Part shown: piece by piece, positions 10,532-18,591 of the stretch
Position numbering within the stretch: position 1 is the first letter of the stretch
Layout of the letters: the number at the start of each line of letters is the position of its first letter
Assembly (NCBI GenBank): GCA_018263505.1
Contig: JAANXA010000012.1
Coordinates: 1 to 60,444, forward strand
Length of the DNA: 60,444 bases
Direction of reading: 5' to 3'
Origin: Candidatus Nitrosopumilus sp.
GTDB lineage: Archaea > Thermoproteota > Nitrososphaeria > Nitrososphaerales > Nitrosopumilaceae
The notes under the pieces: generated by a model
Seen by the model: the letters and a program-made list of their open reading frames with translations, nothing else
Told to the model about the DNA's origin: nothing
Database searches by the model: none
Translations under genes and position numbers: made by a program

Positions 10532-11920
10532 TTGTCACAGGTTTTTCATGAAATTGAAAAAAAAATTATTTCATCTTTAAAAAATAAACCTAATCAAACA
10601 TCGGAATCTCTTGAAAAATCTACAAAACTTTCATCAGATCAAATTAGACGAGGAATTGAATGGCTAAAACTAAAGAATTTGGCCATTGTTAAAGAATCTA
10701 CAACTAGTGTAATTTGTTTAGGTAAAAATGGTCTTGAATCTCTTGAAAAAGAACTTCCTGAAAGAAGATTATTGAATTTGTTAAAAAATAAACCTAAAAA
10801 ATTATCTGACTTACAAAAAGAACTTGGATTTGTTTTTGGACCTGCAATGGGACTTGCTAGAAAAAATAATTGGGTAGAAATTTCTTCTGATAAAATTTCT
10901 CTAAAAAACTCCCCATCTTCACTTCCTGGTGAAAAAACTCTAAAATTTATTGGAAACAATAAATTATCTGCTGATAAAATTGATCAAAATGATTTGTCAT
11001 TACTTTTGAAAAGACCTGATTTTATCACTGAAGAAATAACAAAAATTAAAGAAATTTCTTTAACTGAATCTGCAAAATCTACGGTACTTTCTGATTCATC
11101 TGGTGCCATTGATGTTGAAGCAAAAGTACCTGAAATTTTTGTTGCAAGAACACACCCACTAAAAGATACCCTTGATGAAATTCGTGAAATTTTTGTAACA
11201 TTGGGATTTTCAGAAATAATTGGAAATATGACTCAATCAAGCTTTTGGAATTTTGATGCTTTATTCACTCCTCAGGATCATCCTGCTAGAGAATTACAAG
11301 ATACATTTTATCTTGATGCAATCAAATCTAAAAAATTTGCAAGTTCTGAACAAATAAGAACAGTTTCTGAATCACATAAAAAAAACTGGAGATACAATTG
11401 GGATATTAATGAAGCAAAAAAAACGGTATTAAGAACTCATACTACTTGCGTAACCATCAAACATTTAGCTGAAAAAAAACCTGATGAAGCAAGAATTTTT
11501 TCATTAGGTCGAGTGTTTAGAAATGAAAAAGTCAGTTACAAACATCTAGTGGAATTTAATCAAATTGAAGGAATTGTTGTTGGAAAAGATGCTAATTTAA
11601 GAAATTTAATGGGAATTCAACGAGAATTTTACAAACGAATAGGAATTACCAAAATAAAATTTTGGCCTACATTTTTCCCTTATACTGAACCATCACTTCA
11701 AACAATGGTGTATAATGAAAGATTGGGAAAGTGGATTGAATTATTTGGCATGGGAATTTTTAGACCTGAGGTAACAAAACCATTGGGTATTACAAAACCT
11801 GTTTTAGCTTGGGGTGGAGGAATTGAAAGAATTGCAATGTTGAAGTATGGATTAGATGATGTTAGGGAATTTTATAATAACAATTTGAATTGGTTGAGGA
11901 GTGTTTCAAAATGCCAGTAG
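10532..11920 (+). CDS. pheS: Phenylalanyl-tRNA synthetase alpha subunit
   Basis: The 462-residue protein has N-terminal winged-helix-like DNA/tRNA-binding segments (about residues 1-150) and a class II catalytic core. Motif 2 is ARIFSLGRVFRNEKVSYKHLVEFNQIEG (about 325-352) and motif 3 is near GGGIERIAMLKYGLDD (about 435-450). It forms an (alpha-beta)2 enzyme with PheT and activates phenylalanine. The start is TTG, supported by the TATA element 26 nt upstream. It overlaps pheT by ten bases, so the two are made from one mRNA. Confidence 0.95.
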   Translation: MSQVFHEIEKKIISSLKNKPNQTSESLEKSTKLSSDQIRRGIEWLKLKNLAIVKESTTSVICLGKNGLESLEKELPERRLLNLLKNKPKKLSDLQKELGFVFGPAMGLARKNNWVEISSDKISLKNSPSSLPGEKTLKFIGNNKLSADKIDQNDLSLLLKRPDFITEEITKIKEISLTESAKSTVLSDSSGAIDVEAKVPEIFVARTHPLKDTLDEIREIFVTLGFSEIIGNMTQSSFWNFDALFTPQDHPARELQDTFYLDAIKSKKFASSEQIRTVSESHKKNWRYNWDINEAKKTVLRTHTTCVTIKHLAEKKPDEARIFSLGRVFRNEKVSYKHLVEFNQIEGIVVGKDANLRNLMGIQREFYKRIGITKIKFWPTFFPYTEPSLQTMVYNERLGKWIELFGMGIFRPEVTKPLGITKPVLAWGGGIERIAMLKYGLDDVREFYNNNLNWLRSVSKCQ

Positions 11921-13554
11921 TTGAATTATCCTATACTCGGCTCCAAAAATTAATTGGGAAAGTTTCAAAAAAACAAATTTCTGATTCTTTACCTTTTCTT
12001 GGGTTAGACATAGAGTCAGAAAATAAAGATTTGGTGAGAGTTGAATATAGTCCTAATAGACCTGATTATTCTACTGATTTTGGGATTGCCCTTGGTTTAC
12101 AAGGATTACTTGGAATTAAAACTGGAGCAATTAAACTAGCAATTAAAAGATCTAAAAAATATCCTATTTCTGTAAATTCATCTGTCTCAAAAATTCGCCC
12201 TTTTGTTACTGGAATCATTGCTAAAAATGGAAAAATTGATGATTCAATGATTAAACAATTCATGACAATGCAAGAAGATCTTCATTTTGGTATAGGCAGA
12301 AAAAGAAAAAAATCATCTATAGGCATTCATGATTTAGATAAAATTTCTTTTCCTTTACTTTATACAACAACTAACAAAAATTATGAATTTATTCCATTGA
12401 ATTCTGAAAAACCTATTTCCATTTCTGAAATTATGACAAATACTGATTTAGGAAAAGAATATGGTTCAATCCTTGGACATTCTTCAATGGTTCCAATTAT
12501 TTTAGATTCTAATCAACAAACTGTATCTTTTCCTCCCATCATAAATGCTGCTGTAACTACTGTTACATCAAAAACAAAAAATCTCTTTGTTGAAGTAACT
12601 GGAATTAACAAAGAGGATGCAGAAGATATGCTTTCTGTTGTTGCAACAATTTTACAGAAAGCAGGATTTGTTTTAGAATCTGTTCATATTACTGGTTCAA
12701 AAAACTCCACACCTAAACTTGAACAAAAGAAAATTTCTGTTACATCTAAATTAATCAATCAGACCTTAGGTCTGAATTTGAAAACATCAAAAATTATTTC
12801 ATCCTTAAAAAAATCTAGATTGGATGCATCTTCTAAAGGAAAACAAATCCTTTGTACTATCCCTGCATACAGATTTGACATTTTTGGGCCTATGGATCTA
12901 GTAGAAGAAACTGCTTTGGGTTATGGAATTCAAAATCTTGAACCTATGTTAACTCCTTCACAAACAATTGGTCAGATAAATCCTATTTCTCTTGAATTAA
13001 AATCATTGAGTCAAATAATGATTGGTATTGGATTTCTTGAAGCTTTGAATTCTAGTTTAACCAGTAAACGAGTTCTTTATGAAATGACTAACAGAAATTC
13101 TGAAAAAATTATTTCAGTACTTGATTCAAAAAGTCAAGAACATACAATATTACGAGATTCAATACTTCCTGGACTGTTAGAAAATCTTTCAAAAAATATT
13201 CATGAATCATATCCCCAAAAAACGTTTGAAATAGGAACTGTTTTCACTTTGAATGACTCCGTATCTGAAAAAACTAACTTTTCAGGTATTAGTGCACATC
13301 AAGATGCTAATTTCACTGAAATCAAGTCTGTTTTACAATCTGCATTAAAAACTGGATTTGGACTACAAATTGATACTAAAACTACTACACACCCCTCTTT
13401 TGAAGATGGTCGTTGCGCAACTATATTACAAAATGGAAAACCAATTGGAATAATTGGTGAAATCGATTCAAAAATTATTGAAAATTACAAAGTTCGTGTA
13501 CCTGTTGTAGGATTTGAAATATCCTTATCTGAATCCATTCTCAAATCTATTTAG
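11911..13554 (+). CDS. pheT: Phenylalanyl-tRNA synthetase beta subunit, archaeal type
   Basis: The 547-residue protein has the shorter archaeal/eukaryal beta-subunit layout, without the bacterial N-terminal EMAP-type and C-terminal anticodon-binding domains. A B3/B4 editing region (about residues 80-200) is followed by B5 and a catalytic-like fold (YRFDIFGPMDLVEETALGYG). I chose ATG 11911, which overlaps pheS by ten bases; starting further upstream would only add residues inside pheS. Its 3' end overlaps the convergent small membrane gene by 30 bases. Confidence 0.95.
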   Translation: MPVVELSYTRLQKLIGKVSKKQISDSLPFLGLDIESENKDLVRVEYSPNRPDYSTDFGIALGLQGLLGIKTGAIKLAIKRSKKYPISVNSSVSKIRPFVTGIIAKNGKIDDSMIKQFMTMQEDLHFGIGRKRKKSSIGIHDLDKISFPLLYTTTNKNYEFIPLNSEKPISISEIMTNTDLGKEYGSILGHSSMVPIILDSNQQTVSFPPIINAAVTTVTSKTKNLFVEVTGINKEDAEDMLSVVATILQKAGFVLESVHITGSKNSTPKLEQKKISVTSKLINQTLGLNLKTSKIISSLKKSRLDASSKGKQILCTIPAYRFDIFGPMDLVEETALGYGIQNLEPMLTPSQTIGQINPISLELKSLSQIMIGIGFLEALNSSLTSKRVLYEMTNRNSEKIISVLDSKSQEHTILRDSILPGLLENLSKNIHESYPQKTFEIGTVFTLNDSVSEKTNFSGISAHQDANFTEIKSVLQSALKTGFGLQIDTKTTTHPSFEDGRCATILQNGKPIGIIGEIDSKIIENYKVRVPVVGFEISLSESILKSI

Positions 13555-13785
13555 AAAAGAACCTGCTAAAACAATACTTCCTACTCCTAAAATTATAATT
13601 CCTATAAAAAATTCAATAAACAATTTTTGATAGATATTTTTCTTTTCTTCACTAAGTAAATTATGTGATTTTAAATCCATATTCTCAAAATACTGAATTT
13701 GTGGATAATCAAATATGATAATCAAAAATCCTAAAATTAACAAAATTATTCCGATGAAAAATAATGTAATGTTTTTTATCTCCAT
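13525..13785 (-). CDS. Small two-span membrane protein
   Basis: The 86-residue protein has two hydrophobic helices, about residues 4-26 and 56-78, joined by a polar loop (DYPQIQYFENMDLKSHNLLSEEKK). The C-terminus (FLNRFENGFR) overlaps the end of pheT on the other strand by 30 bases. I chose the ATG at 13785, which follows an AT-rich promoter-like stretch; the frame is open further upstream, but that part runs into the structured RNA region. The function is unknown. Confidence 0.55.
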   Translation of the reverse strand: MEIKNITLFFIGIILLILGFLIIIFDYPQIQYFENMDLKSHNLLSEEKKNIYQKLFIEFFIGIIILGVGSIVLAGSFLNRFENGFR

Positions 13786-13869
13786 GCTTTTTTTATAAAT
13801 TAAATTCAATTTTAGTTTTAAAAAGAAATTTTTTTTATGAATGATTAACTCCTCAATGGTTTTTAGTAG

Positions 13870-14057
13870 GAGTGGGCATATCATTAAACGCCCAAGAGCA
13901 GGCACGCAGACGGATTGGGATGATGCGATCGTGATGATACCAATGATTTCTAATTCACCCAGGCGTGCTACATTATGGGCAACCCCGGTTTCAGAACGCG
14001 AGGAGGCATATGGCTATGTACCCATGATTTTGTGCGAGTCAGAACCGGGGAACATTA
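13870..14057 (+). ncRNA. Probable H/ACA-type guide RNA (GC-rich structured island)
   Basis: This stretch is clearly GC-richer than its surroundings and folds into consecutive hairpins. Hairpin two: GGCACGC (13901-13907) pairs with GCGTGCT (13963-13969) and is followed at once by ACA (13970-13972). Its upper stem ATTGG/CCAAT (13914-13918, 13940-13944) is topped by GATGA/TGATGA, a K-turn-like L7Ae site. Hairpin three: CCCCGGTT (13983-13990) pairs with AACCGGGG (14043-14050), with ACA at 14052-14054. Lower stem, internal loop, upper stem and ACA are the layout of archaeal H/ACA pseudouridylation guides. A small GGGC/GCCC hairpin lies at the 5' side. Strand and ends are inferred; TTTTAAAAAG at about 13820 could be the TATA box. 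RNase P and SRP RNA signatures are absent. Confidence 0.55.
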
Positions 14058-14101
14058 CCTGTAACAAAAACGATTAAACATCTACTAAAAAAATAAAATA
14101 C

Positions 14102-14521
14102 ATGATAAACTATTGGTTAGCAAAACAAGAACCAAGCGGTCCTAGGGGATACAATTTTGAAAATCTAAAAAAAGATAAAACTACAATTTGGGATGGTGTT
14201 CATAATAATTTAGCATTAAAACACATGAGAAAAATGAAATCTGGTGATCTTGTATTGTTTTATCATACAGGGAGTGAAAGACAAGCTGTTGGAATTATGC
14301 AAGTTATTTCAAAACCATACCCAAATCCAAAAGAAGATCTTGAACGTTTTATTGTTGTAGATGTAAAATACAAAAAAACATTGAAACGCCCTGTTACACT
14401 AAATGAAATTAAAAAAAATAAAAAATTCAAAGATTGGGAATTAGTAAAAATTTCAAGATTATCTGTTATGCCTGTACCAAAATTGATTTGGGATGAAATC
14501 TTAAAGATTTCTCAAAGTTGA
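14102..14521 (+). CDS. EVE domain protein
   Basis: The 139-residue protein is a single EVE domain. It starts INYWLAKQEPSGPRGYNFENL, has WDGVHNNLALKHMRKMKSGDLVLFYHTG (about residues 30-57), and continues with AVGIMQVISKPYPNP. EVE domains are PUA-related and bind modified bases in DNA or RNA, such as methylated nucleotides. Here it could read N6-methyladenine from the Dam-type enzyme, or modified RNA; that link is speculation. The length is typical of stand-alone EVE proteins. It begins just behind the structured RNA island. Confidence 0.85.
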   Translation: MINYWLAKQEPSGPRGYNFENLKKDKTTIWDGVHNNLALKHMRKMKSGDLVLFYHTGSERQAVGIMQVISKPYPNPKEDLERFIVVDVKYKKTLKRPVTLNEIKKNKKFKDWELVKISRLSVMPVPKLIWDEILKISQS

Positions 14522-18434: not shown

Positions 18435-18437
18435 ACG

Positions 18438-18591
18438 TGGGGCCGACCGGAATCGAACCGGCGACCTACGGGTCACTACAGCTCCAAACTTACATCATCC
18501 GTGAGTCAGTTTAGCTTAGTTAACCTTTGGAGCCCTTAGCGGTGATCTTTTTCGTAGACACTGTCGCCCTACCAGGCTAGGCTACGACCCC
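18438..18591 (-). tRNA. tRNA-Trp (CCA anticodon) with two introns
   Basis: The gene is 154 nt on the minus strand. The acceptor GGGGTCG pairs with CGGCCCC, with discriminator A. Joining 18591-18563, 18535-18527 and 18473-18438 gives a 74-nt tRNA with anticodon arm ACGGG-CTCCAAA-CCCGT, anticodon CCA. Intron one (27 nt, 18562-18536) interrupts the anticodon stem. A bulge-helix-bulge forms there by GGCG pairing with CGCT, with an inner GTG/CAC stem. Intron two (53 nt, 18526-18474) is at the canonical 37/38 site. It contains TTTGGAG, which can pair with the anticodon loop CTCCAAA, and box-C/D-like CTGA and ATGATG motifs. Its 3' splice helix is imperfect, so that boundary is less sure. Confidence 0.85.

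Follow-up and report, generated by a model that had tools for sequence, protein, structure and literature searches.

A conserved RNA gene of about 171 nt lies in a single block at 13887-14057 on the plus strand of the window, the whole 60,444-nt stretch of DNA that was analysed, and it is very probably the gene of a two-hairpin archaeal box H/ACA guide RNA. Judged by its sequence, the RNA most likely directs pseudouridine formation at two critical sites of the large ribosomal RNA. The region had been singled out in an earlier note as a GC-rich island, and the RNA does have 51% G+C against 30.9% for the 60-kb window, which is part of a 1.37-Mb assembly in 68 contigs that, by its size, composition and gene content, resembles a Nitrosopumilus-type ammonia-oxidising archaeon. 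The two stems, their internal loops and the ACA trinucleotides at 13970-13972 and 14052-14054 were all located where that note had put them. Its start at 13870 has to be moved: the RNA begins about 17 nt further downstream, and 13870-13886 is variable spacer.

Table. Features of the predicted guide RNA and its upstream element (window coordinates; 23S rRNA in E. coli numbering)
Feature	Positions	Strand	Remarks
Promoter-like (TATA-box-like) element TTTTTAGTA	13860-13868	+	Conserved in the genus (29-genome alignment); followed by 22-25 nt of variable spacer
Whole predicted H/ACA guide RNA	13887-14057	+	Covariance-model match, 211.7 bits, model positions 1-172; predicted ends; conserved block
Basal helix, 5' side GCCC	13890-13893	+	Pairs with 13977-13980; two-sided changes in 3/4 pairs; pairing in 99.3% of cells
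Hairpin 1 lower stem, 5' side GGCACGC	13901-13907	+	Pairs with 13963-13969; 6/7 pairs change on both sides
Hairpin 1 pocket, predicted 5' guide strand GACGG	13909-13913	+	Complementary to 23S CCGUC 2590-2594
Hairpin 1 upper (GA) stem, 5' side	13914-13920	+	Pairs with 13948-13954; covaries
Hairpin 1 K-turn, 5' strand UGA	13921-13923	+	Conserved; U.U then two sheared G.A layers with 13945-13947
Hairpin 1 K-turn, 3' strand GAU	13945-13947	+	TGA unchanged throughout the phylum-wide alignment of hairpin 1
Hairpin 1 upper stem, 3' side	13948-13954	+	Covaries with 13914-13920
Hairpin 1 pocket, predicted 3' guide strand ACCCAG	13957-13962	+	Complementary to 23S CUGGGU 2579-2584
Hairpin 1 lower stem, 3' side GCGTGCT	13963-13969	+	Covaries with 13901-13907
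Hairpin 1 ACA box	13970-13972	+	In 20/20 remote relatives; invariant in the phylum-wide hairpin 1 alignment
Basal helix, 3' side GGGC	13977-13980	+	Pairs with 13890-13893
Hairpin 2 lower stem, 5' side CCCCGGTT	13983-13990	+	Pairs with 14043-14050; 4/8 pairs change on both sides
Hairpin 2 pocket, predicted 5' guide strand AGA	13993-13995	+	In most relatives; complementary to 23S UCU 1923-1925
Hairpin 2 K-turn-like element, 5' strand (GA and C-stem GG)	14003-14006	+	Conserved GA-GG/CC-NNU-GA; C-stem 92% paired
Hairpin 2 K-turn-like element, 3' strand (CC and GA)	14021-14027	+	Conserved GA-GG/CC-NNU-GA
Hairpin 2 pocket, predicted 3' guide strand GTCAGA	14038-14043	+	First base 14 nt before the ACA; complementary to 23S UCUGAC 1915-1920
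Hairpin 2 lower stem, 3' side AACCGGGG	14043-14050	+	Covaries with 13983-13990
Hairpin 2 ACA box, near the RNA 3' end	14052-14054	+	Invariant in the 29-genome and 36-sequence alignments

The gene was found by BLAST as a single copy in 30 of the 37 genomes of the genus, its own included, at 80-95% identity. Over 29 of these genomes the mean column identity from the GCCC to the ACA is 93%, and both flanks diverge. A genus-level covariance model built from 29 sequences matched 169 of 300 genomes of the order, in 37 of 64 genera. A further model, R2, picked up weaker relatives in other families of the phylum at E-values of 3e-8 to 4e-3, which are rough figures from short-calibrated models, and a model of hairpin 1 only, R3, gave one match each in 148 of 397 genomes. 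The predicted guide letters travel with the fold: GACGG is present in 35 of the 36 relatives in a diverse alignment and in 18 of 20 remote ones, ACCCAG in 35/36 and ACCCA in 20/20, and ACGG, ACCCA and ACA occur together in all 20 remote hairpin 1 matches inspected. GTCAG of hairpin 2 is invariant in the 36-sequence alignment, and most other families have GTYAG. One genome of the genus (L030) has CCA in place of the hairpin 1 ACA.

Some distant families depart from this arrangement. Matches in seven genomes of family f8 cover mainly hairpin 2, and the R3 search gave no hairpin 1 match in that family, where hairpin 1 seems to have been lost, moved or changed too far. In three genomes of family f2 an insertion of several tens of bases with a TATA-like TTATAAATGGAT parts the two hairpins, which may be made there as two separate transcripts. 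In L117, from an archaeal bin with 9% contamination, positions 57-232 of the minus strand match tmRNA at 28.8 bits, below the threshold of 47, which is perhaps a contaminant contig or chance.

Comparison between genomes, and not folding energy, is what sets the RNA apart from chance. The energy z-score is -1.27 on the plus strand, where 22 of 200 shuffled sequences fold equally well, and -0.68 on the minus strand. Among the 36 diverse sequences, by comparison, 23 of 35 pairs show two-sided changes that preserve pairing, and 95.9% of cells are paired. None of 500 shuffles reached this level of two-sided change, and it was destroyed when partners were slid by 1-3 columns. That alignment was fitted to the covariance model and so leans towards structure, but covariation also appears in alignments that were not fitted: five pairs change on both sides in a MAFFT alignment of one genus, and 8 of 13 pairs do so in the phylum-wide alignment of hairpin 1. 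Compensatory changes, which the earlier note had asked for in both stems, occur in the lower stem of each hairpin and, for hairpin 1, in the upper stem too. Hairpin 1 and its ACA box lie inside the basal helix 13890-13893/13977-13980.

Candidate helices beyond these were rejected. A long terminal stem proposed by RNAalifold, between AATGGTTTTT and the EVE start region, has the promoter-like element as its 5' side and lacks two-sided changes. Near the 5' end the window sequence can form a GGGC..GCCC hairpin, which the genus alignment does not conserve, and a small hairpin inside hairpin 2 (columns 112-115/122-125 of the 29-genome alignment) is only 89% paired.

The same alignments bear on the idea of a short protein gene. 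The window does contain an open frame here, a 78-aa plus-strand one at 13841-14077 being an example, but that frame is broken in most relatives, no frame stays open across the genus, single-base indels occur and base pairs covary. A protein gene has a negligible probability.

The layout of an H/ACA guide, as the earlier note had read it, gained support from the covariation, the fixed N-ACA, the fold of hairpin 1 and the presence of a Cbf5 gene in the genome (TIGR00425, 372.1 bits). Each hairpin has a lower stem, a pocket, an upper stem, a K-turn or K-loop, putative in hairpin 2, and an ACA 14-15 nt below the top of the pocket. The N-ACA is constant after both stems while the adjoining stem covaries, a pattern that extends to other families of the phylum, and phylum-wide the pocket strands of hairpin 1 stay constant between varying stems. 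In productive archaeal guides, counting from the pocket-closing pair, the second G:A is reached after 10 stacked layers and the ACA after 14-15 (up to 16) nt (PMC4652768). Hairpin 1, with 10 layers from A13914-T13954 to A13923.G13945 and 15 nt to its ACA, fits this published 10-layer, 14-15-nt rule exactly. Hairpin 2 has 14-15 nt from pocket-closing pair to ACA, counted on the 29-genome alignment; a figure of about 10 layers requires one bulged base and the inclusion of two non-standard layers.

The earlier note had also seen a K-turn-like GATGA/TGATGA element at the top of one stem. A K-turn is indeed there in hairpin 1, formed by 13921-13923 and 13945-13947, and the element named in the note is a different one, its TGATGA (13932-13937) lying in the apical stem-loop. 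That apical stem-loop is dropped in distant relatives and a short K-loop stays; archaeal H/ACA motifs may carry a K-loop in place of a K-turn (PMC4652768). The conserved GA-GG/CC-NNU-GA of hairpin 2 is a putative K-turn. Counting against the identity as a guide are the ACA of hairpin 1, which sits within an internal loop closed by a helix, and hairpin 2, with its weak upper stem and a 5' guide duplex of 3 bp.

A structured GC-rich island within an AT-rich genome could also suggest RNase P RNA or SRP RNA, whose hallmarks the earlier note had called absent. Searches for these RNAs (RF00373, RF01857) gave no match at 13887-14057, and both genes were found on other contigs of the genome (RNase P RNA at 192.7 bits, SRP RNA at 101.4 bits), so the RNA of the window is neither; the chance of this reading is vanishingly small. 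Rfam as a whole has no match within the window and misses this RNA.

For the H/ACA RNA itself, we infer its transcription, its assembly into an RNP and its rRNA targets. In each hairpin the K-turn would be the binding site of L7Ae, and the ACA box and stems that of Cbf5 with Nop10 and Gar1. The internal-loop pocket of each would open onto 23S rRNA and hold out a single uridine for Cbf5 to convert to pseudouridine.

The gene sits between pheT (11890-13554) and a gene for an EVE-domain protein (14102-14521), whose start codon is about 45-50 nt downstream of the RNA end. This placement on the same strand, which recurs in the genus, would suit a cis-acting leader or riboswitch-like element of the EVE-domain gene. 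The RNA, however, has two H/ACA hairpins and ends in an ACA-closed one, has a promoter-like element of its own and also occurs in other families; some distant copies have no EVE start within 45 nt downstream, as read from sequence with unannotated neighbours. We regard a leader as very improbable.

For the guide RNA, TTTTTAGTA at 13860-13868 is a putative promoter. Several other genera have the stop codon of pheT about 20 nt upstream of the RNA, with the AT-rich end of that gene at the expected promoter position, so the RNA could there be processed from a longer transcript instead of having its own promoter. The RNA of those genera comes almost directly after pheT, unlike in the window, where a minus-strand ORF (13525-13905) with hydrophobic stretches and no Pfam match separates the two. 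A second GC-rich island of the window (50% G+C, 18437-18591, minus strand) is a tRNA-Gln (TTG) gene with a 70-nt intron, which ARAGORN detects with its intron option; neither ARAGORN without that option nor the Rfam tRNA search picked it up.

Targets were sought in 16S and 23S rRNA, and 23S positions were numbered by aligning the 23S rRNA of this genome to that of E. coli. The hairpin 1 strands ACCCAG and GACGG complement CUGGGU (2579-2584) and CCGUC (2590-2594) of 23S rRNA, with UUAGA between. Such dual complementarity around U2585/U2586 was equalled by 2 of 2000 dinucleotide-shuffled rRNA sets, and the true chance figure is less extreme because the guide windows and gap range were picked after inspection. 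Archaea are known to have a pseudouridine at U2586, which is Haloarcula 2621 (PMC2584109). The main weakness of this assignment is that the pairing leaves five target bases unpaired, against the canonical two; in 16S and 23S rRNA no target with the canonical two-base gap was found for hairpin 1 beyond those of shuffled guides. Three unpaired target bases have been proposed for one Haloferax motif (PMC4652768), and in three relatives with AACCCA, U2585 would pair too, leaving U2586 at the top. With moderate confidence, the predicted target of hairpin 1 is U2586 (or U2585), in the peptidyl-transferase centre.

Hairpin 2 seems to be aimed at helix 69. Its GUCAGA and AGA complement UCUGAC (1915-1920) and UCU (1923-1925) around U1921-C1922. 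The match is not far beyond chance: 11 of 2000 shuffles were as good, and 39 of 2000 for a five-plus-three version, with guide windows chosen post hoc. A helix-69 uridine is put forward tentatively, as a possible target with slightly less than even support, U1921 being the best candidate and U1917 or U1915 the others. The earlier note had expected rRNA targets 14-16 nt before each ACA, and this was borne out in part: U1921 lies at 14 nt with the canonical two-base gap, the 5' duplex there is a weak 3 bp, and the gap of hairpin 1 is five. In yeast there is a pseudouridine at the position equivalent to U1921.

The guide letters of hairpin 2 differ between families while helix 69 is identical in all relatives where it could be read. 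GUYAG, of most other families, and the GUCAG of the window RNA fit U1921 better, and the Pab40-type GUUAC of family f48 (L164) fits U1915. Two genomes (L149 and L157) have 3.8-kb 23S matches in which the helix-69 region before CTTAAGG is foreign sequence, and these probably carry 23S rRNA introns at the helix-69 site.

The wide gap also invites a reading in which the H/ACA-type RNP is mainly an rRNA chaperone that keeps the peptidyl-transferase centre and helix 69 clamped while the ribosome is assembled, modification being a secondary role or lacking altogether. The five-base unpaired stretch and the conserved enclosing helix of hairpin 1 would fit it, as would pocket letters that are unchanged across the phylum, and Cbf5 is reported to be non-essential in archaea, with other roles possible for H/ACA RNPs (PMC7991803). 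Yet hairpin 1 has the geometry of productive guides and a pseudouridine is known from archaea at its site, and we consider a chaperone improbable. Marginally less so, and still unlikely, is a wider proposal: that this is an ancient two-site RNP of the phylum, with a five-base target bulge and its first ACA inside a conserved helix, that serves as an assembly clamp or uses a new substrate geometry instead of being a plain guide, and whose second hairpin was retargeted from U1915 to U1921.

Read as a guide, the RNA provides ammonia-oxidising archaea with a concrete, testable and previously unannotated rRNA-modification guide. No description of H/ACA guides in thaumarchaea was found in the open-access literature; most subscription journals lie outside that coverage, so an earlier report is possible. 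Much of an archaeal phylum has retained, in single copy, a guide hairpin whose apparent target is the catalytic core of the ribosome. From the alignments, RNA-family models could be built to annotate a gene that Rfam now misses in many genomes, and the differing hairpin 2 letters, set against an unchanged helix 69 where readable, offer a way to trace guide retargeting.

Guides of the same structural kind include HgcF/Pab35, HgcE/Pab105 and other Pyrococcus H/ACA RNAs. A relation to HgcE was rejected, as RF00060 gave two weak matches in 151 genomes and none in the genome of the window. Marine group II Euryarchaeota have an abundant RNA called Tan1.

A closer likeness is with Pab40/HgcG (RF00064; Pf7 in P. 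furiosus), whose third hairpin targets 23S L2016, that is Haloarcula 1956 or E. coli 1915. Its last hairpin shares the plan of hairpin 2, with a lower stem, GUYA 14-11 nt before the ACA and a K-turn. Pab40 differs in having three motifs where the window RNA has two hairpins, and in its guide letters, its GUUAC fitting U1915 and the GUCAG(A) of the window RNA fitting U1921 better. RF00064 gave no match in the window even at E-values up to 5, so the RNA is kept out of the HgcG/Pab40 family; among 200 genomes of the phylum its best score was 47.9 bits, against a gathering threshold of 77 bits. These sub-threshold relatives include ones whose last hairpin has the hairpin 2 plan, and one relative, L116, matches both models (31.5 bits with R2, 31.1 bits with RF00064). 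On these two grounds hairpin 2 is probably homologous to the third hairpin of Pab40/HgcG.

By its published description, a two-motif H/ACA guide of Haloferax and Haloarcula, called sR-h45, visits its sites in the same order, E. coli U2586 in the peptidyl-transferase centre and then helix 69. Its first motif, Hvo1, targets 2621, and Hvo2 targets 1956 and 1958 (PMC2584109, PMC4652768). It differs from the window RNA in the long spacer that separates the hairpins in halobacteria (PMC2584109), in the target gap and in the helix-69 site. The RNA of the window belongs to a known kind, the H/ACA guides, in a lineage that Rfam misses, and has two unusual traits: a helix that encloses hairpin 1 with its ACA box, and a wide target gap at the peptidyl-transferase centre.
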